Shown here one piece after another: positions 2,388 to 24,691 of a stretch of 28,786 nucleotides of DNA (positions are counted from its first letter, which is position 1; every line of letters begins with the position of its first letter). The notes beneath the pieces were generated by a model. That model was not told the DNA's origin, made no database searches, and saw only the letters and a program-made list of their open reading frames with translations. The position numbers and the translations under genes were made by a program. Location: IMG/VR virus record IMGVR_UViG_3300017527_000112, positions 1 to 28,786 of that record. One strand, 5' to 3'. This stretch comes from a virus.

Positions 2388-2741
2388 TTATTTTGTAACT
2401 GAAGGGGTCACTTCAATCTGACCTTCTAGAATTCTTTCAATAATAGTATTACTTTCCGAATCTAAATGTGAAATTTCAACATCATATACGTATCTTCCGG
2501 CCTTTAGTAAGCCGGTTTGAGTGTTGGTAAGAGACATAGCTATGATACCATCAGTTGCCGGGGAAGTTATAATCGAAGCGAAATCAGTAGTATCATCCGA
2601 ATCGCTGTTATACGTTTTTTTCAATTTAGCAGCAGCGGAATAGTTGGTAAGGTCCTTGACTAATGAGTTTGCATCTTGAAGATGAATCTCAATAGCCACG
2701 TCACTTCCCTGATCAATTGTAATGTCTTCGTAATGTGCCAT
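2388..2741 (-). CDS. Conserved structural protein, BppU-N-like beta domain suspected (117 aa)
   Basis: A small acidic protein that opens DITIDQGSDVAIEIHLQDAN and continues as alternating beta strands with NYSAAAKLKK, GIIAMSLT and GRYVYDVEI. This resembles the Ig-like N-terminal domain of phage upper baseplate proteins: ligand-free beta sandwich, polar strand edges and a C-terminal VYDVEI strand. It is the first gene after the late promoter octamer at 2766-2773, has a GAGAG ribosome site, and leads the 117/85/678-aa group. A role in attaching the fibre to the baseplate is plausible. Function not demonstrated; family assignment rests on pattern only. Confidence 0.6.
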   Translation of the reverse strand: MAHYEDITIDQGSDVAIEIHLQDANSLVKDLTNYSAAAKLKKTYNSDSDDTTDFASIITSPATDGIIAMSLTNTQTGLLKAGRYVYDVEISHLDSESNTIIERILEGQIEVTPSVTK

Positions 2742-2765: not shown

Positions 2766-2773
2766 TATTTATA
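2766..2773 (-). promoter_or_regulatory. T4-type late promoter octamer
   Basis: Minus-strand TATAAATA in the short gap before the 117-aa gene, 24 bases from its ATG. It overlaps the TAA stop of the upstream glycosyltransferase gene, so promoter and stop share bases. It would give the three fibre genes their own late transcript, separate from the accessory block. Confidence 0.7.
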
Positions 2774-3482
2774 CAAATTCTGAATAGTATTTCCAGTTAT
2801 GTGGCTTATTCATAGAATGAGTAAAATGTACCATTTTTATATCAGGATGGAATTCATCTCCGAGAAACAGGTATGGATTGCCAGTTTTTGCTTTGTATTT
2901 TCTGGTTAGATTTCGATGAAAATTGAAAATCAAATCTTCATCTGGTTGTGAATGTTTCATATTAATTACATAATCAGTTGCCCATCGGGTGAACCATTTG
3001 ACGGGCAAATGGGTTAGACGTAACCCAAATTTCTTGACATGATCTTCTACAAAATGTTGTTCTCCATTCACTGGGCCGGTAGTGGTGCCATTTAAGATAT
3101 AGTATTGTTGCCACATTTTAGGATCAGACATAAATTCATCATAGATAGGCTTGCAATCTCTTGGATAGTATTTAAAGAAACCGCCATTGATACCTTTACC
3201 TTCTCCTTGCCACCAATCAGGCATGGCCGCAAATTCCCCTCGCTTTATTGGAAAGTCAAATATTTTCTTGTAATCATTCATCAAGATAACATCAATATCC
3301 ATAACGACTACGGCTTCATCAAGGTCAAGGTTCATGACTGCCATCTTGTTCCATTGTAAAGCTACCCGTGGATCAAAGGGTTCTCGAATCCAATGAATAT
3401 CATAATCAAAAAGCTTCATTTCTATATAAGCTTCATACTCAGGGCCATATTTGTCCCCTATTCTTACGCAAAATATCTTCAT
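2769..3482 (-). CDS. Glycosyltransferase-like protein, DxD type (237 aa)
   Basis: Likely transfers a sugar from a nucleotide-sugar donor. It shows the pattern of GT-A enzymes: a start MKIFCVRIGDKYG, a helix ending LQWNKMAVMN, then a hydrophobic strand running into D62-I-D64 (VVVMDIDVIL) for metal/donor binding, and GINGGFFKY where GT8-like enzymes have a donor-loop Asn-Gly/Gly-Gly motif. Near the C-terminus the segment MVHFTHSMNKPHNW has the His/Lys pattern of a C-terminal donor-binding site. There is no signal peptide or membrane segment, so it acts in the cytoplasm. Its ATG overlaps the stop of the next upstream glycosyltransferase (ATGA). Sugar and acceptor cannot be read from the sequence. 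Confidence 0.7.
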   Translation of the reverse strand: MKIFCVRIGDKYGPEYEAYIEMKLFDYDIHWIREPFDPRVALQWNKMAVMNLDLDEAVVVMDIDVILMNDYKKIFDFPIKRGEFAAMPDWWQGEGKGINGGFFKYYPRDCKPIYDEFMSDPKMWQQYYILNGTTTGPVNGEQHFVEDHVKKFGLRLTHLPVKWFTRWATDYVINMKHSQPDEDLIFNFHRNLTRKYKAKTGNPYLFLGDEFHPDIKMVHFTHSMNKPHNWKYYSEFV

Positions 3483-4339
3483 ATAAATAGGTCAAACCTC
3501 TTGTTGATTACGTGATACATGTAAGCCGGATCAAAGGTTTCTTCCCGAACTGGATAGTGCCATTTTTTACTCAGAAATTGGATTGGGACTTTGTTCATTA
3601 CTTGTTTGAAGGCAAACACCGTTTCATTATCATAATTGAAAACACGTTGTATGTTGGGGGGGTACATCGAATAAGGATCAGTCTTGAGTTGGGTCATGAG
3701 TTTGATAGTGTCTCCAAAATAACCAAAGTAATTAAGCTTGTTTATAAGTTTGGTAGACGCTATCATGATCCCGGTGTTGAACACGTCTGTATGGCCATCA
3801 TATCCACTCTCAGATAGCATTGCGTGAGTGTTCCAGTACTTAGAAGCTGGGTTGCGGATACAGGTATTGAAATCTTTGGAATTAATCTCCTTACCCCATT
3901 CCGCTTCTGCATTGGATTCCGCCAGCACAAAATGGTTCTCAACATCATGTTCATCAAAGATGTTTTTTGTTGAACACGGCACCACATCAAAATCCAAATA
4001 ACATACCTGATCATATCCAGCAGCAGTTGATGCAAGTCGAGACATAAGCTCATGTTTGTAGAAATTGATTATGTCATATTCCGATATCATTGGATATGAT
4101 TTACGAATATCTTTAGCATAGATTTCATACTCAAGTCCAAACAGCCGATATTCAACTCCAATTGATTTGGCATAGGCTTCTTGTTTTGCTTTCAAAAAGG
4201 AATAGTAAAGCTTAAAGGCGTTACGGGTTTCTCTACTCTTGGTGGTTGTATTTTGCACACCAGTTTCTGTAAAGTCCCCCGGATTATCTAACTTGGAAGT
4301 TGGAATGTCTACAAAAATGCTAAAGATTATTCGTTTCAT
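3479..4339 (-). CDS. Glycosyltransferase-like protein, DxD type (286 aa)
   Basis: A second cytoplasmic GT-A-like enzyme. A beta strand (QVCYLDFDVV) places D116-F-D118 at the end of the donor-binding half, followed by an acceptor/donor region with FNTGIMIAS, comparable to the FNSG/FNTG step of GT8 and related families. The segment YAKSIGVEYRLFG upstream is typical of enzymes that start with a helix and a second Rossmann strand. The C-terminus holds KKWHYPV and YHVINK. It overlaps both neighbours by 4 bases (ATGA), so it is translated as part of a tight chain. It is clearly different in sequence from the 237-aa and 252-aa enzymes, so this is not a recent duplication. Substrate unknown. Confidence 0.7.
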   Translation of the reverse strand: MKRIIFSIFVDIPTSKLDNPGDFTETGVQNTTTKSRETRNAFKLYYSFLKAKQEAYAKSIGVEYRLFGLEYEIYAKDIRKSYPMISEYDIINFYKHELMSRLASTAAGYDQVCYLDFDVVPCSTKNIFDEHDVENHFVLAESNAEAEWGKEINSKDFNTCIRNPASKYWNTHAMLSESGYDGHTDVFNTGIMIASTKLINKLNYFGYFGDTIKLMTQLKTDPYSMYPPNIQRVFNYDNETVFAFKQVMNKVPIQFLSKKWHYPVREETFDPAYMYHVINKRFDLFI

Positions 4340-4935
4340 TTGCCTATCACCATGAATCGTTTGTACCCATCTTCTATCTCTATTTCTCCTTCAAACAATA
4401 TCACATCAAGTCCGGTTGAGAGAATGAAAGCGTCTAAATTTTTACTCAAGTTGATATTGCCTTTCTTGGGAAGATTGGTGCCCTGAAGAATGAATAGAGT
4501 GTTTGGTCTGTAACCCTGCTTTAGATCATAGAAGTGATATAGGTCTTCACAATTGGTGCATAACACCGTATCAACATCTTTTGAAATGGGGTCAAAGTTT
4601 ACATCAAGAGTTGATTGCACAAACTCTATATCGCCCTTCATGGAATGGGCTAGTCTCCAATTTATTTCTGTTACTTCTTCATCGTAATCAAGCATGTTTA
4701 TAGAGATTGCCCCGTGGGATTTTAACAAAGTTAACGAATATATCCCTATACCTGAAGCATAGACATTCACCTTTTGAATATCAGCAAGCAACTCTCTATC
4801 CCACCACAAGTGTTGTTCCATGGAAGAGGGTTTTATAGCATCATAAAAATCGGTTTTACGATAAGGTATTTCATTATCAATATAATACAGAGCATCTATC
4901 CACCCCTGCATATCTTTTGGGTCATTTACAAACAT
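4336..4935 (-). CDS. Rossmann-fold, methyltransferase-like protein (199 aa)
   Basis: Not recognised with certainty. Residues about 56-69 (VNVYASGIGIYSLTLL) look like motif I of a class I SAM-binding fold (S61-G-I-G64), followed by a strand ending in acidic residues (MLDYDEE, D83/D85) where such enzymes hold the ribose hydroxyls. Later strands VDTVLCTNCEDL and NTLFILQGTN fit the remaining central sheet. The glycine motif is shorter than the usual GxGxG, so SAM binding is uncertain; it could be a degenerate methyltransferase or another nucleotide-binding protein. It sits between two glycosyltransferases, overlapping both (10 bases upstream, 4 bases downstream), which suggests work on the same substrate. 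Confidence 0.55.
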   Translation of the reverse strand: MFVNDPKDMQGWIDALYYIDNEIPYRKTDFYDAIKPSSMEQHLWWDRELLADIQKVNVYASGIGIYSLTLLKSHGAISINMLDYDEEVTEINWRLAHSMKGDIEFVQSTLDVNFDPISKDVDTVLCTNCEDLYHFYDLKQGYRPNTLFILQGTNLPKKGNINLSKNLDAFILSTGLDVILFEGEIEIEDGYKRFMVIGK

Positions 4936-5684
4936 AGGGCGTTCTTTTCATCTATGGATAATCCATTCAGCATGTGAACCAATCCTCTACCATATCTAGG
5001 ATATTCTTCGGATGTTATAATGCCCATTGGAAACATGTTAAAATGTTCCCGTCTTTCTTGCTCGTATGCATAAGGACCAAAAGCATGAAACATGAAATTG
5101 TCATTTGCTCCATAGGTGAAAAAGACCTTATCCAAATTCTCATTTACGAAATCAAAAATTCTTCGGTTTTGACCGGGCTTCCATACCATGACAGAAGAAT
5201 TGAAATATGGACAACGTCTCAAATGAAATTGACGCTTCCATTCCTCGCCTTCATTCTCATCAAACCAATAACTCTTGACCAGCCAAGGTTTCTCATTATC
5301 CAAGTCAAAGAAATACGAAAGGTCGCCAAGGATAAGACTATCAAGGTCTAAATATAAGATGGTATCATCAGGATCAAAAACGGGTTTGTTGTCTACCTTT
5401 AGGTCTAGGTCTTCCTTAAACATAAGCAGTTTTCTATAATGGGTTAATCCCCCACAATCATCTCTTTCAAAATCATCCCACTTACCTTCTGCTCTTTGAT
5501 CTGGATCGTCTTGTCCTCTAAAATGAATCTTCTGGGCAGCATTCCATTTTGGTATATCCACATCTATTAGAGGCACAAAATCAAATGGTACAGAGCAATT
5601 GGCATTGACCTGATCGAACATCTTATCAATGTGTTCTTGGGTATAAACCTCTCCCCATTTCATCACTACTATTTTGTTAGACAT
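4926..5684 (-). CDS. Glycosyltransferase-like protein, DxD type (252 aa)
   Basis: Third GT-A-like enzyme of the block. It begins with IVVMKWGEVYTQEHIDKM, a pattern in which a first strand and helix carry the nucleotide-sugar binding start. The metal-binding motif is D113-L-D115 (LYLDLDSLIL), followed by a strand and FNSSVMVWKPG, equivalent to the acceptor-side FNSG step. Cys30, Cys77, Cys178 and Cys251 are scattered, not a zinc set. A strong ribosome site (GGAAGGG) precedes the ATG, which lies inside the end of the sulfotransferase-like gene (16-base overlap). No secretion signal. Comparable proteins are frequent in marine T4-like phages, but their acceptors are unknown. Confidence 0.7.
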   Translation of the reverse strand: MSNKIVVMKWGEVYTQEHIDKMFDQVNANCSVPFDFVPLIDVDIPKWNAAQKIHFRGQDDPDQRAEGKWDDFERDDCGGLTHYRKLLMFKEDLDLKVDNKPVFDPDDTILYLDLDSLILGDLSYFFDLDNEKPWLVKSYWFDENEGEEWKRQFHLRRCPYFNSSVMVWKPGQNRRIFDFVNENLDKVFFTYGANDNFMFHAFGPYAYEQERREHFNMFPMGIITSEEYPRYGRGLVHMLNGLSIDEKNALCL

Positions 5685-6409
5685 TCATTAATCCCTTCCC
5701 AAATAGGCTTGGCTTGATATTCTATCTCTCCTATTAAACGTTCCCAATCTTCTATATGGTCCAGTTTATCAAAAACATCACCCCAAATTTTGGTACTTTG
5801 ATCATTACTTTTCCATTTCGTCATTTCTCTGGGCGTTATAATATGTAGATCGTCAAACCCATCTAAGAAGGTTGGAAGATGATCTAAGAATTGTTGAGTT
5901 ATTTTTGAGAAACTGGTTATTATTTCCAATGAAATGTCTAAAGGTATTTGTATATTATTATAAAGCTTTCTTAAGTCTTGCGTAGTATGACATGTATTGA
6001 TAGCATTTTTATTAGGCTTCACCACCGCAAATGTTAATCTTGCTACATTCCAATATTGTCCCCAAGTTGAGTTTGTATTCATTGCCTGTTTGGTCATATA
6101 CATAGGCAACAGGAAAGAAGTGTAGGTTTCAAAATATCCTCTAGGCTTCAATATAATCCCAGATTTATTGTCAAATGTATTCCTTCCCATTATCAAATCT
6201 TTAAAATTGTGGAATTGCTCCCCTTGTATTTTACACAAGGTTCGTTTAGAATGATAATAGTCTTCTACTTCTCCTAACGTTCTCCATTGACCAAAAACCT
6301 CTGCAAAATTTATCATTCCTTTTTCTTCTGCTAAAGTCGAACAGAAGAAAGTAGAAGCTGAACGGGGATTCATATAAACAATTGCAGAATCATATTTTAG
6401 ATTGATCAT
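5669..6409 (-). CDS. Sulfotransferase-like P-loop protein (246 aa from the preferred start)
   Basis: The N-terminus reads a hydrophobic strand then MNPRSASTFFCSTL, which matches the PAPS 5'-phosphosulfate loop of sulfotransferases (PRSGTT/PRTGST type) with the Arg-Ser and Ser-Thr pairs kept. NFAEVFGQW follows at the position where Stf0-like enzymes have an acidic substrate motif. The C-terminal half is helical, rich in Trp/Asp, with no other familiar motif. Reading can begin as far up as 6451 (MMKQRIMTGG...), but that start has no ribosome site and overlaps the preceding gene by 62 bases; the ATG at 6409 has GGA with 6-base spacing and overlaps by 20, so I prefer it. If active it would sulfate a sugar or other hydroxyl acceptor. 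Family assignment is moderate. Confidence 0.55.
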   Translation of the reverse strand: MINLKYDSAIVYMNPRSASTFFCSTLAEEKGMINFAEVFGQWRTLGEVEDYYHSKRTLCKIQGEQFHNFKDLIMGRNTFDNKSGIILKPRGYFETYTSFLLPMYMTKQAMNTNSTWGQYWNVARLTFAVVKPNKNAINTCHTTQDLRKLYNNIQIPLDISLEIITSFSKITQQFLDHLPTFLDGFDDLHIITPREMTKWKSNDQSTKIWGDVFDKLDHIEDWERLIGEIEYQAKPIWEGINECLTK

Positions 6410-7124
6410 CTTTGTTCCAATACCACCTGTCATGATCCTTTGTTTCATCATGTGTCAAATCGTATTTAGCCTGTTCTACCAGATCGTCTAATGAAGTGCC
6501 TTCTTCATTATCTAGTTGCTCATACCCCCATTTCATCTCTTTACACCCCATACATTCTCCACAATGCCAGAGTTCATGTCTGTTGCAACTGATTGTGGTC
6601 TTGAATATCTTATCAAAATAGCGGCGTCGGGCTAGATCGATGATATGATATTTCTCAAGATGTTCCATTGGATTTTTGAGAAATGGGTCATTGGTTCTCC
6701 ATGGGCGTTTTGGAAACTCAGGAGAATTAGGATCGTATTTATGAAAGAATTCGTTTCGGGGGGATTGTATGTTTCCACAATACAATTCTTCTACTTCATT
6801 ACTTTGTCGTATCTCATCCATTGCCAACCAAATTCTGGCATGATGATTGTACATAGGAATACTCCAGTTATCCTGACCCACAATATTGAGTTTGAGATGA
6901 GATAATCCCATCTGCTTGAGAAGTTCTATGATGACAGGCTTTTCTTTGTTGGGACCTGTCTGGATATTGTAAAGCTTTATCTCTGGGGGTTTGAAGAGGC
7001 TCTTGGCCAATAGATACAATAAGACTGTGGAATCCATTCCAGATGAAACCAGAACCCCCACCTTCTTTTTTGGTTTAAGGCTTAGGACTCTTTCATCCCA
7101 GTCTGGTCCACAATGAAATTTCAT
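6390..7124 (-). CDS. QueC-like PP-loop ATPase with Cys4 zinc site (244 aa)
   Basis: An adenylating enzyme of the N-type PP-loop family. The ATP-pyrophosphatase loop is at 23-36 (VGVLVSSGMDSTVL), with Ser-Ser-Gly-Met-Asp-Ser in place of the usual SGGxDS. Near the C-terminus C180, C188, C191 and C194 (SCNRHELWHCGECMGCK) form the Cx7CxxCxxC zinc set typical of QueC, the enzyme that makes 7-cyano-7-deazaguanine (preQ0). About 50 extra acidic residues follow the zinc set. QueC in phages usually goes with other deazaguanine genes; none is visible here. In this glycosyltransferase setting it might instead activate a carboxylate for sugar or peptide modification. Ribosome site AGGA present; 2-base gap to the methyltransferase gene. 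Confidence 0.7.
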   Translation of the reverse strand: MKFHCGPDWDERVLSLKPKKKVGVLVSSGMDSTVLLYLLAKSLFKPPEIKLYNIQTGPNKEKPVIIELLKQMGLSHLKLNIVGQDNWSIPMYNHHARIWLAMDEIRQSNEVEELYCGNIQSPRNEFFHKYDPNSPEFPKRPWRTNDPFLKNPMEHLEKYHIIDLARRRYFDKIFKTTISCNRHELWHCGECMGCKEMKWGYEQLDNEEGTSLDDLVEQAKYDLTHDETKDHDRWYWNKDDQSKI

Positions 7125-7126
7125 TA

Positions 7127-7696
7127 CTAAATCCTATTTGTAATTACCCAATAATCTTCTTTCCATTCTTTATATAGCGGTCTAAAATCAATTGAAAGAG
7201 CATGACCTTCTGCCAAGGCTTCTACCTGATCCCGTGTATAATGAGTTACATATTCTGATCCCAATGGGGGATTATAATTAGGAGAAAACATCACACCACA
7301 AAAAGTGGTAGAACCAGATGATATGATTTGTTCAAAGAAAGATGATAGACTGACATAATTGATAGTTCCAAACAAAGACAAGATGGTATCTGCCCGTTGG
7401 GGAAATACCTCTTTGCAATTCCACTTACGAAAGTTGTGATTTGGATATTTCTTTTTGGCTTCGTCTATCATCTTTTGAGATATGTCAAGTCCAAGAAACA
7501 TGTCTTTTGGCTGTTGTTCAAGACCCGCTATCTCAATATCCTGACCAGTGCCAATGCCCTGAGATATTACAGAACCCAAAGGACCAAGGCGTTTGATATG
7601 TTGTGTTGTTTGTTTTTCATCATTACGATATTGTTCTTGTTGATAATCGGTATCATAATGATCTGCTTCTTCATCATATAGTTTTTCAATGCTCAT
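7127..7696 (-). CDS. Class I SAM-dependent methyltransferase (189 aa)
   Basis: The start LYDEEADHYD is the N-terminal helix common in small-molecule methyltransferases. Motif I is at about 43-52 (VISQGIGTGQD, glycines 47, 49, 51), motif post-I is LGLDIS with D71 for the SAM ribose, and MIDEAKKKYPNHNF continues the typical helix to motif II. ADTILSLFGTINYV is motif IV-like. There is no target-recognition domain and no DNA-methylase DPPY/NPPF motif, so a DNA substrate is unlikely; O- or N-methylation of a sugar or small molecule fits the neighbours. Length is short but complete. A good ribosome site (AAGGA) precedes it, 12 bases after the 180-aa gene. Confidence 0.75.
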   Translation of the reverse strand: MSIEKLYDEEADHYDTDYQQEQYRNDEKQTTQHIKRLGPLGSVISQGIGTGQDIEIAGLEQQPKDMFLGLDISQKMIDEAKKKYPNHNFRKWNCKEVFPQRADTILSLFGTINYVSLSSFFEQIISSGSTTFCGVMFSPNYNPPLGSEYVTHYTRDQVEALAEGHALSIDFRPLYKEWKEDYWVITNRI

Positions 7697-7708: not shown

Positions 7709-8251
7709 TTATTTTAAGGTTTTGTGTAGTATAGTAAACAACTCCAATAATGTTTCTGAAGTTCTAATCTTTTGTTTCTTATCACGTCCCGCCTTGGTTT
7801 TCAAGGCTTTTATTTCAGGTATTTCAAACACTGCCAGTTTAGCTCTAAAAAGGATATCCTCATCTTCATTTTTATCCAACACTTCATTCACAACACTATT
7901 AGAAACATCTCTATCAAGCTGTTCTTCTTCAACCAATGTTTTGTATTTGGTTTCGAATTTGTGCTTGATACGCTTTACTTCATTTTGAGCAAAGAACCTA
8001 TAAATATCTCGAAATGCCTGACCTTGTTCTTTGTTATAGGTTACGGTTTCTAATTGAATACGTTCATAATCCCAACCTTCATCAAAGAGGTCTTTGAGTT
8101 CAGAATAATCTGGATCAAGGGCTGGAATATGTACAGAAATGATTTCTGGTTCTTCGCCTTCATCTTTATGATTGTATTGAACTTCGATAGTATCATGTTC
8201 TTCATTTGAGAATACTGCTCTAACGATTTCTTTATCAGTAAATACTGCCAT
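7709..8251 (-). CDS. Hypothetical acidic helical protein (180 aa)
   Basis: Not recognised. The N-terminal 60 residues are beta-like and acidic (TIEVQYNHKDEGEEPEIISV) with a repeated DxDYSELKDLFDEG element; the remaining part is strongly helical and charged (RIKHKFETKYKTLVEEEQLD, and KAKAGRDKKQK-like basic stretch near 150-160). No signal or membrane segment. It lies between the last structural protein (309 aa) and the modification block, with 3 bases to the former and an AGAAGG ribosome site. Possible roles are a fibre chaperone or assembly factor, by position only. Confidence 0.5.
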   Translation of the reverse strand: MAVFTDKEIVRAVFSNEEHDTIEVQYNHKDEGEEPEIISVHIPALDPDYSELKDLFDEGWDYERIQLETVTYNKEQGQAFRDIYRFFAQNEVKRIKHKFETKYKTLVEEEQLDRDVSNSVVNEVLDKNEDEDILFRAKLAVFEIPEIKALKTKAGRDKKQKIRTSETLLELFTILHKTLK

Positions 8252-8254
8252 TTG

Positions 8255-9184
8255 TTACACCTTCTGACATGTCAAATATGTGGTAGTTATAGTTGTTTGG
8301 GTACCGTCTGGAAATTCTTGGGCACGGTAATCATTTTTAGAAACCCAACGAGTTTGCCAATTACCAGAACCATTAAGTTTAGTATCCACCATTCCTGACC
8401 CTCTAGCCCAAGTACCAGACGTTGATTTATCATAATCGATTTTATACCCTGCTACTTGAGCAGCATAATACCTAACACAATTTTGTAGTATGGTTTGAAA
8501 ATTGGCTCTTGTATATTTCTGTAGATGATTTGCAGCCGTGATTTGTACCGGTGTTGGAATAGCCCCTTCAGAAGCACCATCAATAGAATGAAGATAATAG
8601 TTCTGGATAGTGATAGGTTGATCAAGAGTTTCGTAAATGCCCCCAGCCGTATACAGCGTTGTATCAGCCCGTGTATCAACGAACACTGGAGTTGCTGATA
8701 TAAGGGTATGTCCAGCCAGACTTGACGCTGTATGGACCCTGTACGTGCCTGCTTGGGCTGTTGTAGTAGCAGCAGTAGTTAGGGTATCTATTACATCATC
8801 TACAAATGTATCTCTCATATCTGTAAGGGTCATTGCATGAATATTACCCCCAGATTGATACACCGGAAATGCTTTATTGTTTGTATCTGTTGGGGCAGAA
8901 AGAGAGGCAAAGGCTTCAGCAAACTTATCATAGTTTACAGTTACGGTAGTCGGTTCTGGGGTTTCACCTTCAGTATCAAAATTGTGTGTGTCAGTTGTTC
9001 CAGCCCCAGCTTGTAAACGGGTATCAGCAATATTACCAAAAGAACCAGTTCCAACCGTTAAAGTTACTGAAGGGTTTAATCCATATTGGCGGATCATTTC
9101 AGTTTTGATATTTGCAATATCTGTATCTGACATTTCTTGTAGGTTATTAGAACCATCAAGTTTTAGAGGTCTTCTTACCGTCAT
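8255..9184 (-). CDS. Virion structural protein of marine T4-like phage type (309 aa)
   Basis: The opening VRRPLKLDGSNNLQEMSDTD, then IRQYGLNPSVTLTVG, is a pattern I associate with a conserved structural protein found near the baseplate/fibre genes of T4-like cyanophages. The rest is Thr/Ala/Ser-rich with beta repeats, then an aromatic C-terminal portion (YYAAQVAGYKIDYD, WQTRWVSKNDYRAQEFPDGT) that could be a lectin-like or attachment domain. Upstream ribosome site is weak. It follows the 168-aa fibre-like gene by 2 bases. A fibre or baseplate-edge role is likely; the exact one is unknown. Confidence 0.6.
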   Translation of the reverse strand: MTVRRPLKLDGSNNLQEMSDTDIANIKTEMIRQYGLNPSVTLTVGTGSFGNIADTRLQAGAGTTDTHNFDTEGETPEPTTVTVNYDKFAEAFASLSAPTDTNNKAFPVYQSGGNIHAMTLTDMRDTFVDDVIDTLTTAATTTAQAGTYRVHTASSLAGHTLISATPVFVDTRADTTLYTAGGIYETLDQPITIQNYYLHSIDGASEGAIPTPVQITAANHLQKYTRANFQTILQNCVRYYAAQVAGYKIDYDKSTSGTWARGSGMVDTKLNGSGNWQTRWVSKNDYRAQEFPDGTQTTITTTYLTCQKV

Positions 9185-9694: not shown

Positions 9695-9919
9695 TCATTT
9701 CTCTATTAATTGGTGAAGCAACATTTTGATATCAGATATATCACCTTTTAGGTTACGAATATCTCGTTTCATTTGGTTGTATTCGTTATCTTTAATCTTG
9801 CGTTTCTCTTTTGCATTTCGGGCGGCTTGCATACTACCCTTATTTATATTGATGATAGCCCCGGAATTTGTATCTCGTACAAACCCCGGAAGACCTTCAA
9901 CCTGTAATCTATTACCCAT
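9695..9919 (-). CDS. Small conserved coiled-coil protein after the giant wedge gene (74 aa)
   Basis: The protein has a short conserved-looking front (NRLQVEGLPGFVRDTNSGAI) and then a charged helix from about residue 30 to the end with hydrophobic positions spaced as heptads (MKRDIRNLKGDISDIKMLLH). Short proteins with this front and a coiled-coil end accompany the large structural gene in related phages as I recall them. Start codon overlaps the stop of the 1663-aa gene (TAATG), giving translational coupling and probably fixed stoichiometry. Likely a small wedge component or chaperone; function not known. Confidence 0.65.
   Translation of the reverse strand: MGNRLQVEGLPGFVRDTNSGAIININKGSMQAARNAKEKRKIKDNEYNQMKRDIRNLKGDISDIKMLLHQLIEK
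9841..9848 (-). promoter_or_regulatory. Exact late-promoter octamer inside the 74-aa gene (doubtful)
   Basis: Minus-strand TATAAATA matches the late element, but it lies within coding sequence, 147 bases before the next ATG (9693). It might add a transcript for the fibre genes; chance occurrence is as likely. Confidence 0.25.
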
Positions 9920-12900
9920 TATACCCCCAGAGCTATTACCCGTAGGTCTTGAATGGTAGGAATTTTAGATGAATTGGTAGATGTAAACACCATTTTCAAT
10001 TGGAATTGGGTAAATGGATCAATTGAGCCGCCTCTACCCCCAATCAAATATTCATAATCTCTAAACTTAGTGGTATCTTCATCAGAAGGCATTGAAGTTT
10101 CTACTGTTGAAGCCACCCATGCCACGTCTGTAAGATTTGTTTCATCTGTACCAATTCTATAGTACAATTCGATATCAGCAACAGAAGGTCTGTTAATGCC
10201 CATGATAACCTTAATGCCAACAGCATCTTCTTCTAGTGTTACCGCTTTGGTAATATGCTTGGAAGCGTGTGAACCATCGGAAGGATCGGTTTCGGCCACA
10301 TAATTCAAAGGAACATTATATCCGGTTGCTGGCGCAGCAGCTTGATTATCAATATCATTTGACCATGTGATCATATTCAAGGTTGAACCATCAACAACAG
10401 GAGATACTTTAGAGCTTGTAGTAGTCATACTACTCTTAAGCGTACTTGATCTTACCCCAGCCCCAAGTTCAGCAGTTTCCAGAGTAGGACTTGCCACCAA
10501 ACGTGGAGCAAGAGTGTTATTGTCCTGATTTATATAAACAGAAGAATATGAAGTGTCCTTTTGGTATGCAGTTTCAGTCCCAGCATAAGATTTACCGGTA
10601 GTTAGTTTAATTTCATGACTAAGGGCTGTACTTTTTGGTAAAATTTTATCAACATATGGAACATAAGTATCAAACATTACGTTTTTAGTAACGATAACCT
10701 CTGATCCACCGCCAAAGGTAGTACTAGTAGCAGCAGAATCAGCTTCTACTGTATATCCTGTGTTGTCCAAGGCTGTAATAGCTCTTGTACCAAGAATAGA
10801 AGTACCAGCTATACCCCCAACAGTTCCCCCAGAATCAATACCATAGATTGTAACATCATCAGATACCGTAAATCCATGATTTGGATGTGCGAATGTTATT
10901 GTAGCATCCCCGGAATCGGTTGAAATAGGATCGGCTTCTAACATTGTTCTAGGCAAATCAACGTTTTCTGATATAAGATATCCACCAGCAGTATCAAAAT
11001 CTGCACGGTAAAGTTTGAACGCAATATCTGAAGTCTGATCAGCAGTCCATGTAGAAGAGTTCTGAGATTTGAACATTGAACCAGAGGCTGGTTGTTTGTT
11101 TACTCGTTTTTCGGTAGAGCCTAAGATGAAATCATAAATTTTAGCAATGTAGATATTGTATTCTGTGGTATTTGCCAAAACAACGAATGAATATTCTGTA
11201 TTAGGACTAAGGAATACCGGAGCATCAAATTCAAATGAAGTCGCTGTTGTACCATCAGCAGAAGTGTTAACCGAGGCAGGAGCCAAAAGCTTGGTACTGT
11301 TTTCTAAGACATTGGAGGATGGATATCCATTAACCATTTCTCGAATTTCCACCCATACTGGATCGGTGGTTGCTTTTGTCGCAAAATACAAGTCGAGTTT
11401 GGTTAAGAAAATGCCTTCGTCTTCAATCACAAAGAATGATTGAGCCAACGGATCAGGGGGCACTCTTGGTTCTTCACGTTCTTCACGTTCACGTACAATG
11501 ACATTCACTATACTCAAACCATTAGCTTCGAATGGAGCTTTGGCTACTGTTAGTGCATCTGCTTCCACGTCAGCACTAATATCCAGAAGTTTAAATTCTC
11601 GTACCCCAGTTCTAAATTGAATATTTTCATTATTGGGCACTATGAAAGAACCTTCAATAGTACCTTCTGCGTCTGTGGTTAAAGTTGAAGAGCCTTCAGG
11701 ATTTGAAGGAGTTGTTGCAACCCTTCTAAGGCGATTGCCAAAACGCTCAGTTGAAGGCATCGCATCAGTGATTCGTTGGAAGGATTCTTCTCTACACCAG
11801 TCTGATACATTCACACCATCAAAGAATGGGAATACCCGTGTATTAGGTCTCATTCCTTCTGCTCTGAAGAATATTTTGATTGAACGCATGAATGGAATTA
11901 CGGTAGAATTATCATCCGCAATGATATTACCATCACGGGTAATACGTCTTCTAGCTTCACCCCTAAATCTGTTACGGCCATTTTGATTAAATCCGTCAAC
12001 CTCACCTCTACCCCAAGAAGTAACACCTGTTGCCAACCATGTTGTATTCATGGCACGACTTCTAGTGTTACGGTTTCTTTGTCCTGCTCTAACGGTAATA
12101 GTGGTAATTTCTCTCCACTCATCACGATTAGGAGACAGAGTCATTTCCCCGAAATGTAGAAATACTGCAAATGGGTTAACGTTTTCAGTTCTGGACACAA
12201 GAGGTTGATCAATGTATGTTACTTCATCATATTTCAGATAAATTCTATCAGCCTTCTTAATGGTGTTAGAAGATAAATCAGAATCGTATGACATTTTAAC
12301 TTCATCATTTGAGAAAGATGGTCTCAGATGATTATAGCGAAAATCAATAGAAGATTTATATTCAGGATTTGCAGTGTCCCCCATGGAAGTGTTTTTAAAA
12401 TTATCCACCATGAAACCAGATTTTGTTCTATTCAACCCAGCAGAATCCAATACTTCAAATGATGAAGTTTCCAATTCAAGAAGGGATAGGGCAGTAACTT
12501 CCTTAAGATTTTCAACCTTTGTATTCAAATCATCAATATCTGCCATTGTGTAACGGCGGGTATCGATTTTAGATAGGGTTACATCTGAATCGTTTAAAGT
12601 GTAAGCGTTTAGTTTGATATCATATAGATTTAAAGCCGTATCATGCACTTCAGGAAAAATTGGTGTTAATGAACTTGGTCCATTAAGAACTTCCAGAGTA
12701 CCATCGGTATTAACAACCAATCTGGCATAGCGTGGCATATAATACACAACATCAGAAGTAATCAAATCTGTGGGTTCTGGAAGTTCATTAACCCGTGCAG
12801 CACCCCCAGAATATGTTGTAGATGAGTTTTGCACTGGACGGAAATCTAAAGTATCCCTTAAAGGAACTTCGTTCCCATTATTTTGAGTGTATGTTGGGAT

Positions 12901-14910
12901 TTTATCATAATCTACCTGTCCAGTATAAGAAGAAACAGAGAAAAAATCACCGCTAGTACCGTGGGTGAAGTATTCAAATCTTGCAAATACATTACCAGCC
13001 GGGGCGGTCTGACCACCTTTAAGAACCAATCTACCCAAGCCATATAAGTTATCACGTTGACCGGTATCAACAGTAAATTTAGAAGTTATGTCTGTACCAT
13101 CCGAGTCAGTATCACGAATGCGAGATACATTGTAAATATCAGCAAGAGCTAGATCAATATACTGTACCCCATTACCATCCGAATCAATGGTAGTTGTTAC
13201 TGTAGTTTCTGTAAGAGTTTTTGTTCGTGACGCCCCAGCAGATTTATTCACATATCCCACAACCTCAAGATTAGAGGATGAAATAGGACCAGATGAAATT
13301 GTAGCAGCCGCTGTACCAGCCCCCGCAACAGAAGCTGTAGTGTGTAGATCAGAGTCAGCATTAGCCATCATCCAATCAGAAGTATTTGAAAATGTTTCAC
13401 CGGGCGCTGTAAGATTTATAGACCCTGCCCCGGCCCCATCTGTGGTTGTTGAGAACCTACGCTGCACTGTCAAAGAAATATCTGACATTGATTGTGGTCT
13501 GTCATTAGGCAATGGAAATAGTAGAGAATTTTCCCCAGTATTTTTGAGAACCGCCTTTGCATTTTCTAACAATATATTTGAATAATCAGTAACACCCGAA
13601 CCAAACGATTTAACATTACGGAAGGATGATCCTGAATTCATTTTAACATCAAATATATATTGACGTAGATCACCAGAACCCGCTTCAAGTTCCATTGCTC
13701 TTACACGGGCAGTACCAATAGTAGACCCAAGATAGCTTGCAGAATCTCTAAGATTAACCAATTCAAATTCGTTTATATCATGAAGACCTAAACCACCTGA
13801 AGTAATGATATAATTGCCATAATTGGCAGCAACTACTTCATTATTAAGAGTTGTGGTATCCTGTGCTTTTGACACATCAATTTTGGTTGGATATGCAATA
13901 GAAGCACGATATCCATTAACGTATGAGATACCATCGGACACATCAAGAATTAAAGCGGTAGTATCAGAATCATTTTCATCAAATTTAGCAAGAAAATCTT
14001 TTACATTGTAGTTGCCGGATTCTTCTTTGGTTCTCAGAGCCAAAAGATCATTGATGACATTATAATCATCGGTGGCTTTAACTATGTCTACTAATACACC
14101 ATCAATAAGTTTACCGACATAAACAAAATTTTCATCTGAATCGATATCATCTCGTGTAGAAATGGTGAGGGAAATTCTATAACGATCAGCACCGGGGGCG
14201 GATAGGTTTGGAAGATCACCTGCATTATCAAATAAGGCTGTTGTATCACTTGAAGTAACAATGTCTTGTACTACTTTAAACCCAATATCCAAAGATGGGG
14301 TGGACGTATATTTTGAAACTATAGAGGATTGTGCTACAGCAAATACAAAACGGCCCTGAGTGAAGAAATCACCAGAGGACATTGAAACTCTGGTACCTAC
14401 TCCAATAGCTGGATTACCTGTTGTATTTGTGGTTTGTACAACCAAAGGCCATGCACCATTTGTTATACTTTCACCAGCAGACATTCTAATAGCAGTAGAC
14501 CCGGATGTACCAGAAGCCGTATCTGTATATTGAACATATAGAGTGTCTGGATCAGCCCCAGTTGCCGCCACTACCTCAACAACCTTCACCTTAACACCCG
14601 AGCTTGCCCCGGTGTAAATAGTACCAACAAGGGTAGAAGTATCAGACGGAAGAGCTAAAGCCGTACCAAGTTTGATAAACTCGTAACGATTATTTACAGT
14701 CATACCCCCCGGATTAACAGCAGCACCTTCTTTAAAGATGTTACGGCCAAAACGAGAAATCTCTTCGTGAATAATTGTTTGAGATTGCGTTAATTCTCTC
14801 GCCTGCACCAAACGGCCAGAATTGAACAGAATTCTATGATAACCATCGGACTCTGTCCAGTCATCATTATATGTGGTTGAAAACGTAGCGTTTGTGTAAG
14901 TATTTGGCAT
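9919..14910 (-). CDS. Giant baseplate/tail structural protein, DUF4815 type (1663 aa)
   Basis: The largest gene here. The N-terminus (ILFNSGRLVQARELTQSQTI, then SRFGRNIFKEGAAVNPGG) and the central TVIPFMRSIKIFF, PNTRVFPFFDGVNVSDWC and DPLAQSFFVIEDEGIFLTKL match the DUF4815-type protein of marine T4-like phages. Later regions are beta-sandwich domains with many Ser/Thr/Asp residues. It stands where T4 has genes 9-11, after gp8 and before fibre genes, so it may replace the gp10 pin or build the outer wedge and fibre docking site. Its role is inferred from position. AAGG ribosome site upstream; 8-base gap to gp8; TAATG coupling to the 74-aa gene. There is no frameshift along its 5 kb. Confidence 0.8.
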   Translation of the reverse strand: MPNTYTNATFSTTYNDDWTESDGYHRILFNSGRLVQARELTQSQTIIHEEISRFGRNIFKEGAAVNPGGMTVNNRYEFIKLGTALALPSDTSTLVGTIYTGASSGVKVKVVEVVAATGADPDTLYVQYTDTASGTSGSTAIRMSAGESITNGAWPLVVQTTNTTGNPAIGVGTRVSMSSGDFFTQGRFVFAVAQSSIVSKYTSTPSLDIGFKVVQDIVTSSDTTALFDNAGDLPNLSAPGADRYRISLTISTRDDIDSDENFVYVGKLIDGVLVDIVKATDDYNVINDLLALRTKEESGNYNVKDFLAKFDENDSDTTALILDVSDGISYVNGYRASIAYPTKIDVSKAQDTTTLNNEVVAANYGNYIITSGGLGLHDINEFELVNLRDSASYLGSTIGTARVRAMELEAGSGDLRQYIFDVKMNSGSSFRNVKSFGSGVTDYSNILLENAKAVLKNTGENSLLFPLPNDRPQSMSDISLTVQRRFSTTTDGAGAGSINLTAPGETFSNTSDWMMANADSDLHTTASVAGAGTAAATISSGPISSSNLEVVGYVNKSAGASRTKTLTETTVTTTIDSDGNGVQYIDLALADIYNVSRIRDTDSDGTDITSKFTVDTGQRDNLYGLGRLVLKGGQTAPAGNVFARFEYFTHGTSGDFFSVSSYTGQVDYDKIPTYTQNNGNEVPLRDTLDFRPVQNSSTTYSGGAARVNELPEPTDLITSDVVYYMPRYARLVVNTDGTLEVLNGPSSLTPIFPEVHDTALNLYDIKLNAYTLNDSDVTLSKIDTRRYTMADIDDLNTKVENLKEVTALSLLELETSSFEVLDSAGLNRTKSGFMVDNFKNTSMGDTANPEYKSSIDFRYNHLRPSFSNDEVKMSYDSDLSSNTIKKADRIYLKYDEVTYIDQPLVSRTENVNPFAVFLHFGEMTLSPNRDEWREITTITVRAGQRNRNTRSRAMNTTWLATGVTSWGRGEVDGFNQNGRNRFRGEARRRITRDGNIIADDNSTVIPFMRSIKIFFRAEGMRPNTRVFPFFDGVNVSDWCREESFQRITDAMPSTERFGNRLRRVATTPSNPEGSSTLTTDAEGTIEGSFIVPNNENIQFRTGVREFKLLDISADVEADALTVAKAPFEANGLSIVNVIVREREEREEPRVPPDPLAQSFFVIEDEGIFLTKLDLYFATKATTDPVWVEIREMVNGYPSSNVLENSTKLLAPASVNTSADGTTATSFEFDAPVFLSPNTEYSFVVLANTTEYNIYIAKIYDFILGSTEKRVNKQPASGSMFKSQNSSTWTADQTSDIAFKLYRADFDTAGGYLISENVDLPRTMLEADPISTDSGDATITFAHPNHGFTVSDDVTIYGIDSGGTVGGIAGTSILGTRAITALDNTGYTVEADSAATSTTFGGGSEVIVTKNVMFDTYVPYVDKILPKSTALSHEIKLTTGKSYAGTETAYQKDTSYSSVYINQDNNTLAPRLVASPTLETAELGAGVRSSTLKSSMTTTSSKVSPVVDGSTLNMITWSNDIDNQAAAPATGYNVPLNYVAETDPSDGSHASKHITKAVTLEEDAVGIKVIMGINRPSVADIELYYRIGTDETNLTDVAWVASTVETSMPSDEDTTKFRDYEYLIGGRGGSIDPFTQFQLKMVFTSTNSSKIPTIQDLRVIALGV

Positions 14911-17305: not shown

Positions 17306-17313
17306 TATTTATA
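17306..17313 (-). promoter_or_regulatory. T4-type late promoter octamer
   Basis: Minus-strand TATAAATA in the 29-base gap between the gp7-like gene (stop at 17314) and the 329-aa gene, 21 bases before its ATG. Probably starts the long unit 329-aa/gp8/1663-aa/fibre/modification genes. Confidence 0.7.
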
Positions 17314-20540: not shown

Positions 20541-23030
20541 TCATTGCATGATGGTAATTAGCCAATCTGGGGCAGGAACGTGTTTTGATCTAGTCCCAGA
20601 ACCACCCCAGTATCGACCACGACCAGAACCAATTGAATTTCCAACAGCAATATCATAGTGGAAAGTGTTACCGGACATATACAATACGTCATAATCTCTA
20701 TTTGCAACACCAGCAGATGGAGTATGACCCATTGATCTGGCATTATCAGCAAACTTGGCAGTGAAGCGTTGTATGATCACAAGATCATCATCACGAGTAA
20801 CCGTTAATCTACGACCATCTTTATACAATGCCACATCAGAAGCGTCACCATTGTGTCTACCAGAACCACCAGCCCCACGATAACCAGAAGTAGTTACAAC
20901 ACTAACCCCAACCTCATTACCAGTTTTTTCTAATAGATAAACCAAGTCTGGATTCACCCCGTTAGTTGCAACCTTGTGGGTTTGTTCTACCGGTTTAGGA
21001 TTGCCAGAAGCATCAAGAGTAAGCTCGACTAGTTCATTACCAGATTGTACATTGTTATTGAAATATGTAGAAATTTCATTTGCATATTTACCAGATACGA
21101 TTTGCCAGCGTTGATCAACTTCCGGCATAACGAGTATGAGTTGAACATTTAAACTTCCATCAGGAGCATAAGTGTCATAATCCAAAATAAGTTTATCATA
21201 CAGCACAAAATCTTTCCAATATAAAGCAAGGTCATATGATTTGTCAAGATCAATTTTTCCATCAGGACCATGCAATTCATACACAACCACCCGACCTTTT
21301 GTAGCCAGATCATTAAGTCCATCAGGAGTAACGGTTTCTGATTCACCGGGTTTGTAAAATCCTTCGACTACTACCAAGCGGTGATCCACAAATTCATTTC
21401 TGTCATTATGAATAGTTTTCATGGCAGCAGCTTGCATTTGTAATTGTCTTGCAATAACCAATTTCTCTGCTCTTGATTCCAAATGATCTAGAGTTGTTCT
21501 TTCTCCTGTACCACCAAGGAATTTACCCAGTTGAATACCATCTTCCAGATTTAGACCGGGACCAATCGGTACCTCTTCATATAATTTCATTACATCATAT
21601 GCAGGATTTGGAGTGAATGAGGTTGCTTCAAGATTTTTATTAGGAATGAAACGCCTTGCCCCGGTATCACCAGCGCCATTAGGAGAAATAGGATATGTTG
21701 GGGTTCTTACTGAACCACCAGCCCCGGATGTTCTTCTAACGCCCCCCGGTACAGGATTAGCATAAGAACCACCCAATACACCGTTTGCAAGCTGATTACC
21801 AACAAATTCTTCGTTAGCTCTATTGGCCTCATCCCTCATTCTAGAACGAACTTCTTCTGTGGACAAAATACGATCAGCCACCCCACCATTATTGACAGTT
21901 TGATCTATCATATTTTTAATGAAGTCTCCTTCATCCACTACAACTTTTCCTACTCCACCTTGGGCTTGCCCCAAATATATTTCAATAAGATCGGCTGTTG
22001 GCCACGCAGTTGCAGTCGAATTGGTTGGGGTATCGGGTGAAATAACCGTAACAGGATCAGCACCGGTTCCAGCAGATAGAGTGGCAAAATCAGACTTACA
22101 GGCATCTTTGGCCTTACCATCAAGTTCTCCATGGAACGTAGGGCTTGTCACGCCTTCTGTAAACGTCCCTGAAGTGCCAAACACGTTCTGGGCATACATA
22201 GTGATACCAGAACCACCTATCGTGCCTGTAGCCCCGAATATAGACATAGATTGGGCAGACATATTCATGTTTGGGGTTGAGACCGACATATCCCCTTCGG
22301 CACTCATTTTAGTAGAACCAGAAGAAGCTACCTTCATATCCCCGGCGACGGTTTGTCGATAATCCCCTTTGGTAATATCATTCTTACCCCCAAGAGAAGA
22401 ATTTGTAACAGTCCCCACAGTTGTAACTGATCTTGAACCAGATACGATAGAACCTGATTGACCATAAACCAATTCACGAGAAGACCCATTAACAGTTTCA
22501 GATTTAGAACCTCCAACTGTTGTGTTGATGTTACCGCCAACATTTAAATTCAAATCACCTTGTACGTTTAGATTAAGGTTACCATTCGATTGTATGGTTG
22601 CTTCCCCTTCAACAATAGAGATATTGTTACCAGAGACTACAGTAGCCATATCACCCTGAGAATTGACTATAACCGAACCATCAGGTCTAATATCAATACC
22701 AGCCCCGGATTTGTGCATAATAAGAATTCGTTCTCCCCCCGGAGTATCATTAACTTCTATGATATGACCAGAGGTAGTTTCATTTACATCCGCATGTGGA
22801 TATTCAGATGGGGGCGGTCCTGTGTTTTCAACAGGAATATCATTGAAACCCCCTCCAATTTCTAGGGCATTCCAATCTCTGCCTCTGCTACTTTTATTGG
22901 TAGACACATCACTAATGTATCCAGTTCTAGGAAAGGCACCAGACGGGTCAGCAAAACCAAATACTGGAGTACCCGAAGCATTAACTTCGTCTGTTCTTTG
23001 ATCTGCTATATCTTTTGGGTTAATTGACAT
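20541..23030 (-). CDS. gp5: Central spike needle (gp5 C-terminal beta-helix type) with M15-like peptidase (829 aa)
   Basis: Residues 118-246 hold a glycine at exactly every eighth position (17 in a row: 118, 126, 134 ... 246), with V two before it in many units, the VxGxxxxx repeat of the T4 gp5 three-stranded beta-helix. The first 100 residues (HIIEVNDTPGGERILIMHKS) match the entry to gp5C/VgrG needles. A middle part (DKLILDYDTYAPDGSLNVQL) is found in related phage spikes. The C-terminal 116 residues start TSGYRGAGGSGRHNGDASDV and include FHYD: H726, D732 and H791 are likely zinc ligands of an M15-type D-Ala-D-Ala or endopeptidase. The T4 gp5 lysozyme is absent here and is encoded separately upstream. 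It lies 8 bases after the amidase gene. Confidence 0.82.
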   Translation of the reverse strand: MSINPKDIADQRTDEVNASGTPVFGFADPSGAFPRTGYISDVSTNKSSRGRDWNALEIGGGFNDIPVENTGPPPSEYPHADVNETTSGHIIEVNDTPGGERILIMHKSGAGIDIRPDGSVIVNSQGDMATVVSGNNISIVEGEATIQSNGNLNLNVQGDLNLNVGGNINTTVGGSKSETVNGSSRELVYGQSGSIVSGSRSVTTVGTVTNSSLGGKNDITKGDYRQTVAGDMKVASSGSTKMSAEGDMSVSTPNMNMSAQSMSIFGATGTIGGSGITMYAQNVFGTSGTFTEGVTSPTFHGELDGKAKDACKSDFATLSAGTGADPVTVISPDTPTNSTATAWPTADLIEIYLGQAQGGVGKVVVDEGDFIKNMIDQTVNNGGVADRILSTEEVRSRMRDEANRANEEFVGNQLANGVLGGSYANPVPGGVRRTSGAGGSVRTPTYPISPNGAGDTGARRFIPNKNLEATSFTPNPAYDVMKLYEEVPIGPGLNLEDGIQLGKFLGGTGERTTLDHLESRAEKLVIARQLQMQAAAMKTIHNDRNEFVDHRLVVVEGFYKPGESETVTPDGLNDLATKGRVVVYELHGPDGKIDLDKSYDLALYWKDFVLYDKLILDYDTYAPDGSLNVQLILVMPEVDQRWQIVSGKYANEISTYFNNNVQSGNELVELTLDASGNPKPVEQTHKVATNGVNPDLVYLLEKTGNEVGVSVVTTSGYRGAGGSGRHNGDASDVALYKDGRRLTVTRDDDLVIIQRFTAKFADNARSMGHTPSAGVANRDYDVLYMSGNTFHYDIAVGNSIGSGRGRYWGGSGTRSKHVPAPDWLITIMQ
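22293..22679 (-). repeat. Octapeptide (24-bp codon-period) glycine repeat encoding the spike needle
   Basis: Seventeen consecutive 8-residue units, each with Gly at the same position, span residues 118-246 of the spike gene. The DNA units are diverged (no near-identical tandem copies), so the repeat is maintained by protein structure, not by recent duplication. Confidence 0.85.
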
Positions 23031-23038
23031 TGTAATCT

Positions 23039-24691
23039 CTAAAAGTTTCGGGGGTCAAGGTAATCTCTAATCACTTCTATTGTAATACCATCTTGGGTTT
23101 TCCATTCAGGTTCCCCCTCTGGTATTACATTATTATGATTAAATTTGTTTTTAGAATATCCTACAACATCAAATGCTGGGTCTGTATCACCGTCATCTGA
23201 GGTCATATAATGTCCTGCTACCAAGGCTTGAGGGAATACTCTATGGAAGCTGGCCATAATACCATGATACGCTGTCCATTGGGCGGCTGTTATGGATTTG
23301 GAAGAACGGTATTGAGTATAAGGTTTAACAGCAGCATCAGATGTTTCATTAAGACCACCAACAAATGCGAACCCCAAGAAATGTTTATTGTGATTTTTAT
23401 CGTGGGCACCAGCTTCAGCCATGGGTCTACCTGCTTCAATAACACCATCTCTTCTGATAACCAAATGATATCCAATACCAGCAGCCCCGGCTTCTTTATG
23501 TTGAGCATCAATCCAAACCGAATCTACATCCTGATCTGAGAAAGTTTCTGTCCAATGAATGGTACATCCCGCAATTTCATTACCAGATGTGCGTGTAACA
23601 TTTCTGAATGTTGCTTCAAGCTCATCAAACGTTTTAATTTCTTCAAACGCCCATGTTTCTTCTACCCCAATACCAGATTCTGGACCAACCGAATTACCGG
23701 CAGGGGCTGGGGCTGTTGTTGCTGAATTTTGAGAGTTTAATCCTTGAGGTAACTTTCCAATCTCGTTTATAACCAAAGAAGTAAAGCTACTGGCAGTAGT
23801 ATTTGAATTTGTTCTATCTGTATAAGATGAAAGATCGGTGTTAATCTCCAGATATGATTCTTCTATAGCATTAACTCTTTCGTATGTGGTTAGGGTAACG
23901 ATAGTCCATTCTGATTGTGGTTTTAAAATATCTGTCCAATATGTATCTGGCACCGTGATATATTTTTTGATTATATCGAATGCCTCAGTATAATTTTTGT
24001 CCACAAATAAGATAAATGAAGCCGTTATGTCTGCATCAGATACTGTTCTATCTACCAGAAGCTGCACTTGACTTTCATAATTCTTTTCAATCTTCTCCCC
24101 CATGTCAACTAGATACTGATCACTCTTGACGTTCAATTTTGATTTAATAAGATTTACATATTTCATTACTTCGTTGATTGCATCGGATGAAATGTTATCG
24201 GTAACGGCAGGCATTACAAAACTTTCTAAATTAGACGTGGTCAATCCCTTGAGAACATCTTCAAATTCAGATGGGTCTTTACCTGTTATTTTTTCAAGGG
24301 CAGCAGATACAGCTTCTGCACTAGTCAAAGAATGAACATTTTCAAGAAATCCATTTTCTACGTTGGCAGCAGTTTCTGTTATAGCCAAAAGATCAGCAGC
24401 GTCGGCAGAAGGGACGGTTCCAATTAAATCTTCGGCCATGCCCGGAATATCTTTTGTAAATTCTCCAATGTTTGGAATCATGTTAGGTAAATTTTTAAGT
24501 TCTCCAAAATCTATGGTATTGGTCAAGGATTCAATACCTGATCTAATTTCTCCAGTATCATTCATCAAAGACATTAAGCCAGCAGATTGACGATTACCAG
24601 CTTCTGACACTGCATCTTGAGCAGCAGAAAAATCTGTATTACGAGTGATGCTTAATAGTTGTGTTGATAGATCAGATATGTTTAAAGACAT
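23039..24691 (-). CDS. Hub-region protein with C-terminal N-acetylmuramoyl-L-alanine amidase (550 aa)
   Basis: Residues 1-340 are mostly helical (ITRNTDFSAAQDAVSEAGNR, TNTIDFGELKNLPNMIPNIG) with no enzyme motif. Residues about 355-515 are an Amidase_2/PGRP-type domain that cuts the lactyl-Ala bond of peptidoglycan: CTIHWTET gives zinc ligand H379, GIGYHLVIRRDGVIEAGRP gives Y408, GAHDKNHNKHFLGFAFVGG fits the core, and GHYMTSDDGDTDPAF gives H494 and D504 (spacing 10, as in AmpD H154/D164). The Lys at AmpD 162 is Asp502 here. Located between the gp5 N-terminal and spike-needle genes and joined by TAATG to the first, it likely rides on the spike. T4 has no such protein. Confidence 0.78.
   Translation of the reverse strand: MSLNISDLSTQLLSITRNTDFSAAQDAVSEAGNRQSAGLMSLMNDTGEIRSGIESLTNTIDFGELKNLPNMIPNIGEFTKDIPGMAEDLIGTVPSADAADLLAITETAANVENGFLENVHSLTSAEAVSAALEKITGKDPSEFEDVLKGLTTSNLESFVMPAVTDNISSDAINEVMKYVNLIKSKLNVKSDQYLVDMGEKIEKNYESQVQLLVDRTVSDADITASFILFVDKNYTEAFDIIKKYITVPDTYWTDILKPQSEWTIVTLTTYERVNAIEESYLEINTDLSSYTDRTNSNTTASSFTSLVINEIGKLPQGLNSQNSATTAPAPAGNSVGPESGIGVEETWAFEEIKTFDELEATFRNVTRTSGNEIAGCTIHWTETFSDQDVDSVWIDAQHKEAGAAGIGYHLVIRRDGVIEAGRPMAEAGAHDKNHNKHFLGFAFVGGLNETSDAAVKPYTQYRSSKSITAAQWTAYHGIMASFHRVFPQALVAGHYMTSDDGDTDPAFDVVGYSKNKFNHNNVIPEGEPEWKTQDGITIEVIRDYLDPRNF

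Follow-up and report, generated by a model that had tools for sequence, protein, structure and literature searches.

The reading that we prefer, though tentatively, is that a block of seven genes in a T4-like marine phage forms a late-expressed and exchangeable cassette, which would build and decorate a glycan from within the host recognition cluster of the genome. A QueC-like enzyme would place an amide on a carboxylate, methylation and sulfation would be further decorations, and the acceptor would most likely be a virion protein of the tail or the fibres. The island is of a known kind; its new parts are the pair formed by the QueC-like protein and a methyltransferase (QueC-MT1), which is spread over three genomic settings, and a conserved unit of a glycosyltransferase (GT) with a second methyltransferase-like protein (MT2), and neither has been described as far as the literature search reached. 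These genes were studied in a window of 28,786 nucleotides, the whole stretch of DNA that was analysed.

Layout of the block

Seven open reading frames occur on the minus strand exactly at positions 2769-7696, all of them between baseplate genes and fibre genes (Table 1), and the modification block that the initial annotation placed in the late fibre region is thus real. Along the minus strand, from 7696 to 2769, the order is MT1, QueC-like protein, sulfotransferase, GTc, MT2, GTb and GTa. MT1 and the QueC-like gene are separated by a gap of 2 nt; the latter overlaps the sulfotransferase gene by 62 nt as listed, or by about 20 nt if the sulfotransferase begins at an internal Met near 6409, and the remaining junctions after the sulfotransferase start are overlaps of 16, 10, 4 and 4 nt. 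Clear homologues in other phages exist for six of the seven genes; therefore, the block is not due to chance.

Table 1. Features of the block and of its surroundings in the window
Feature	Position	Strand	Basis or remark
MT1, class I SAM methyltransferase	7127..7696	-	Pfam, alignment, adjacency, reciprocal scan
QueC-like PP-loop ATPase	6390..7124	-	SSGxDS and C(x)7CxxCxxC; lacks the 7-deazaguanine signature
Probable sulfotransferase	5669..6451, likely start near 6409	-	PRSAST and R(x7)S motifs, one homologue
GTc, GT8-like DxD glycosyltransferase	4926..5684	-	Pfam, profile, DxD
MT2, Rossmann-fold methyltransferase/aminopropyltransferase-like protein	4336..4935	-	Profile; partner of the preceding glycosyltransferase
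GTb, GT8-like DxD glycosyltransferase	3479..4339	-	Pfam, DxD
GTa, DxD glycosyltransferase	2769..3482	-	DxD; distant relative of GTc
p180, acidic protein, unknown function	7709..8251	-	Precedes the cassette in most slots
p309, predicted late protein, probably structural; candidate acceptor	8255..9184	-	Presence tracks the cassette
PHROG 1084 / L-shaped tail-fibre assembly-like protein	2388..2741	-	Downstream border of the slot
1663-aa homologue of VrlC baseplate protein	9919..14910	-	Upstream border of the host recognition cluster
Late octamer	17306..17312	-	Nearest upstream promoter candidate for the operon ending with the block
Late octamer	2766..2772	-	Before the fibre genes, after the block

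Transcription runs through the window from the baseplate genes at 28.6 kb to the fibres at position 1. The nearest sequenced gp6 is that of phage C48C1 (42%), which has no such cassette, and megablast found no DNA-level match for the window in phage records. The baseplate hub gp5 seems to be split (20541-25578), with an N-terminal part at 24691-25578, an 829-aa part at 20541-23030 and, between the two, a gene for a 550-aa amidase-like protein.

The block was said to have no late promoter octamer of its own, and the search of the window bears this out: none stands directly before the seven genes, and among gene starts octamers occur only 21-43 nt ahead of those at 28599, 20518, 17284 and 2741, so that they bracket the operon holding the block. 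Of the nine minus-strand matches, four fall inside 60-nt upstream zones, which cover 5% of the window. As for the proposed late expression with the fibres, the block does sit in a late tail operon here; however, this arrangement is not fixed, because cassettes in the same slot are inverted onto the opposite strand in several related phages, although phage Mosig keeps late octamers in both directions there.

The slot and its relatives

What do other phages carry at this place? In a scan of IMG/VR with the neighbouring baseplate protein, phages differed in the cassette that they carry between p309/p180 and the PHROG 1084 gene, and some of these cassettes are inverted. Single-protein scans of IMG/VR with the 1663-aa protein and with the QueC-like protein returned no relatives, whereas alignment-based scans did find them; tblastn of the QueC-like protein against phage records gave nothing. 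Four distinct complete slots contain all six of QueC, MT1, GTc, MT2, GTb and GTa, with GTc-MT2-GTb-GTa in one order, and two truncated slots agree with these as far as they reach. Six of the families are thus inherited together as a cassette, yet the cassette is divisible: QueC-MT1 is also found without these glycosyltransferases in a DNA-modification cluster, and GT-MT2-GTa without QueC or MT1 is very widespread. The cultured Pelagibacter phage Mosig has, in the same slot between VrlC and the fibre genes, p74, p168, p309 and p180, followed by glycosyltransferases of the GTc, GTa and GTb families and by MT2. Sister cassettes also carry NDP-sugar genes and enzymes of the kind that decorate sugars or proteins: a carbamoyltransferase, an aminotransferase, a radical SAM/SPASM protein, an Asp/Asn hydroxylase, an APS-kinase-like protein and a second sulfotransferase-like protein.

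The slot is a hypervariable island after VrlC with tail fibres, and this is what defines the host recognition cluster of pelagimyophages, as outlined earlier (Zaragoza-Solas 2020, PMC7029224). The likeness extends, in that outline, to radical SAM cassettes and glycosyltransferases of the GT8 type that lie amid the fibre genes; the QueC-MT1 pair, the sulfotransferase and the conserved GT-MT2 unit of the block were not found described there. The initial annotation named no described system with this combination; the type of locus was already known, and the QueC-MT1 and GT-MT2 parts are undescribed within the reach of the literature search.

The QueC-like protein and its partner

The calls of a QueC-like PP-loop ATPase, a SAM methyltransferase and a second methyltransferase-like protein were borne out by Pfam and profile matches. 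The QueC-like protein matches Pfam QueC (PF06508, 2.4e-8) and Asn_synthase (3.7e-5), the first match of its family profile is the solved QueC 3bl5 (1.1e-8), and its predicted model (pLDDT 84) also retrieves 3bl5 first, with Cap9 among the top matches, so that 3bl5 is the best match by both sequence profile and structure. It has the PP-loop fold of the QueC family, which includes Cap9 and QatC (PMC13329287, PMC13279940), and a phosphate loop and C-terminal zinc cysteines that resemble those of the family. The loop is SSGxDS in 11 of 11 close members (SGGxDS in canonical QueC), and the zinc motif is C(x)7CxxCxxC, all four cysteines being invariant (C(x)8CxxCxxC in canonical QueC).

The motifs YxQxHxxE, VPxRN and YPDC define canonical QueC (PMC13329287), and they are absent from all 16 sequences checked, and from each of the 11 close members; the protein differs further from the family in being paired with a methyltransferase and in occurring almost only in phages. 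No queD or queE was recognised in the mapped neighbourhoods, where part of the neighbours were typed against a family library. No TGT/DpdA-like transglycosylase was found in 12 records, some of them fragments, while positive controls were found in 14 of 14. With no TGT gene in these records and no substrate motifs, 7-deazaguanine modification of DNA was rejected. The YxDC motif of Cap9 is in no member of the family, no nucleotidyltransferase (CD-NTase) was recognised beside the QueC-like gene among partly typed neighbours, and members of 226-244 aa with C(x)7CxxCxxC differ from QatC, with its about 400 aa and C(x)19CGxCxxRR. In other phages the same slot holds proteins of another PP-loop family, more distant and with SGGxDS, that have no MT1 beside them (L016:15897-16646, L079:16526-17281, L081:6358-7146 and L038:19044-19583).

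MT1 (Pfam Methyltransf_25, 3.4e-5) is adjacent to the QueC-like gene on every examined contig reaching both genes (L104 ends inside QueC), and an independent scan with MT1 gave 19 loci, all 19 on QueC contigs. Weak QueC or MT1 assignments among L145-L224, with E values of about 1e-3 to 4e-6, were left out of the counts. In the window the order of the two genes is reversed with respect to the relatives, and MT1 forms a very long branch in its tree; the resolution of the QueC and MT1 trees is too poor to order the moves between settings. The settings are three: the fibre slot; a place next to DNA polymerase, where a PhyH oxygenase, GTc and MT2 accompany the pair (L086, with an identical cassette arrangement in L092 and L126); and a place flanked by dCMP hydroxymethylase and dCMP deaminase, with a DNA alpha-glucosyltransferase nearby (AGT; L096, L098 and relatives). 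A nearby glycosyltransferase is common to all three, and no partner protein common to all was found. The third setting is seen at L096:9284-11672 and in its relatives L098-L103, while in G001 the hydroxymethylase and deaminase genes are directly adjacent, the pair missing between them. A bacterial origin of the pair was not found: among 84,980 bacterial and archaeal species there was one QueC-MT1 match, on a phage-like contig (L126, CAJXMP010000108.1) binned into a Lewinella MAG. In L092 (124-1833) and L126 (1940-3649), GTb is a 569-aa protein, roughly double its normal length, and immediately precedes QueC.

Glycosyltransferases, MT2 and a probable sulfotransferase

The initial annotation counted three unrelated DxD glycosyltransferases. 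There are indeed three such enzymes, with the DxD motif invariant in all three alignments, but "unrelated" is too strong, since a profile-profile comparison shows GTa to be distantly related to GTc (96%, E 1.4e-9). GTb and GTc match Pfam Glyco_transf_8 (2.4e-4 and 7.9e-4, both below the curated cut-off), and the profile of GTc matches the GT8 structure 5gvv. GTa has no Glyco_transf_8 match in Pfam; its DxD is D-I-D, invariant in 11 homologues, and it has at least 513 relatives in IMG/VR. The MT2 profile points to spermidine synthase and methyltransferases (1.9e-6) and has no similarity to that of MT1, though both are of the Rossmann methyltransferase type. In 64 of 80 occurrences of MT2 a glycosyltransferase lies directly upstream on the same strand, and 4 of the others are at contig ends.

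The sulfotransferase is a probable one, judged from its motifs. It has a PRSAST P-loop, a candidate 5'-phosphosulfate loop, and R(x7)S (R104-S112), a candidate 3'-phosphate motif, together with one homologue (E=0.001, L090:9258-10004) beside QueC; the earlier label "sulfotransferase-like" keeps this much, and is weakly supported, with no family match in Pfam or PDB. Neither a single-protein scan of IMG/VR nor tblastn against phage records returned relatives, a scan with the L090 homologue reached two contigs only, and the predicted model failed (pLDDT 29). APS-kinase-like proteins in QueC-bearing regions (L072:6606-6989 and L096:5445-5867) are a possible source of PAPS.

Proposed mechanism and acceptor

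PP-loop enzymes of the QueC family adenylate a carboxylate and then amidate it. From this chemistry we infer what the cassette may do, in its substrates, reaction order, amide product and acceptor alike: GTc, GTb and GTa would transfer sugars from nucleotide-sugars in the cytoplasm, and MT2 would act together with the glycosyltransferase whose gene precedes its own; the QueC-like enzyme would adenylate a carboxylate, that of a sugar acid or glycan being the most likely, to give an amide; MT1 would methylate this product; and the sulfotransferase would add sulfate. A more doubtful extension is that QueC-MT1 is a phage-specific pair making a methylated amide, or a nitrile-derived group, on a sugar, with acceptors that differ by phage: virion glycans in the fibre slot and a DNA-linked sugar in the hydroxymethylase cluster. 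The occurrence of QueC-MT1 outside the fibre region counts against the main reading, as do the cassettes on the opposite strand; linkage to fibres is thus not essential to the pair.

A virion acceptor, with host glycan as the other possibility, was the initial proposal, and a virion protein of the tail or fibre remains the most likely acceptor, with moderate confidence, in view of the late tail operon, the scarcity of membrane proteins, the association with p309 and the slot phages that have no hydroxymethylase. The 309-aa protein p309, a predicted late protein and putative virion component, is the first candidate. All five large genomes that carry MT2 also have p309, and all five that lack MT2 are without it; among the loci of the backbone set, both are present in 15, both are missing from 22 and 3 disagree (Fisher p 5e-8), and with control for phylogeny about 4 of 5 independent pairs agree (p 0.125), which is suggestive only. 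Phage-encoded glycosyltransferases that put glycans on virion proteins have been described for mycobacteriophages (Freeman 2023, cited by PMC12619734 and PMC11256854); those are phages of Mycobacterium with capsid and tail-tube acceptors, unlike the marine T4-like phage here.

The published authors favour host LPS instead. The cassette would then remodel LPS or another surface glycan late in infection, blocking the adsorption of competing phages or the re-adsorption of progeny, and host O-chain modification is what the outline of the pelagimyophage cluster proposes for it and its GT8 genes (PMC7029224); a role on the host surface has also been proposed for the glycosyltransferase clusters of cyanophages and jumbo phages (PMC7824862). 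The GT8-like families and the NDP-sugar, aminotransferase and carbamoyltransferase genes of sister cassettes fit this account, which is nevertheless the less likely of the two: in 56 cassettes only 8 of 663 ORFs have three or more predicted membrane segments, with almost no flippase-, polymerase- or ligase-like proteins, a misfit with O-antigen assembly that still allows addition to the LPS core, and the block lies in the late tail operon and shows linkage to p309 and, in its sister cassettes, to Asp/Asn hydroxylases. For the glycosyltransferase islands next to the fibre genes of abundant marine phages, modification of host LPS has been an untested assignment; with Mosig in culture, carrying the conserved GT-MT2 core, and with the tracking protein p309, the question of virion versus host becomes directly testable.

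Could the acceptor be DNA, with decorated sugars on 5-hydroxymethylcytosine? T4-type DNA glucosylation uses a dCMP hydroxymethylase and AGT, and it is into such a cluster that QueC-MT1 is inserted in one group of related phages; moreover, G001 and G010 carry slot cassettes plus both enzymes, and virus glycosyltransferases adding diverse glycans to DNA have been reported (Pyle 2024, in the citation of PMC13216743). However, the window block has neither enzyme, the slot core is found without both in the complete genome of Mosig and in the 115-kb G021, and the 12 records mentioned above have no TGT/DpdA-like gene, so that hypermodification of DNA is improbable as a general account, and the idea that the slot core must act on hydroxymethylated DNA was rejected. 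Just as improbable is that QueC-MT1 is an independent module, for instance a protein-conjugating pair like Cap9/QatC in counter-defence, that merely shares the island with the glycosyltransferases. Relatives of QueC act on the N-termini of proteins in CBASS and probably in Qat (PMC11996544, PMC13279940), the pair moves as a unit among its settings, and Cap9 is a structural match; yet the canonical motifs, partly kept in Cap9, are absent here, and the settings share glycosyltransferases rather than a partner protein. The pair would widen the range of the QueC scaffold past deazaguanine and defence, and through its place in a DNA-modification cluster it connects two forms of decoration in phages.

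Asp/Asn hydroxylases usually act on peptides. One such beta-hydroxylase gene lies directly after MT2 in L157 (7173-7862), with genes of similar size at that place in several other slots, and hints at a peptide acceptor. The p309 gene is duplicated, with one copy on each side of the cassette, in L087 (8594-9532 and 15585-16529) and in L105 (6545-7471 and 16015-16929).
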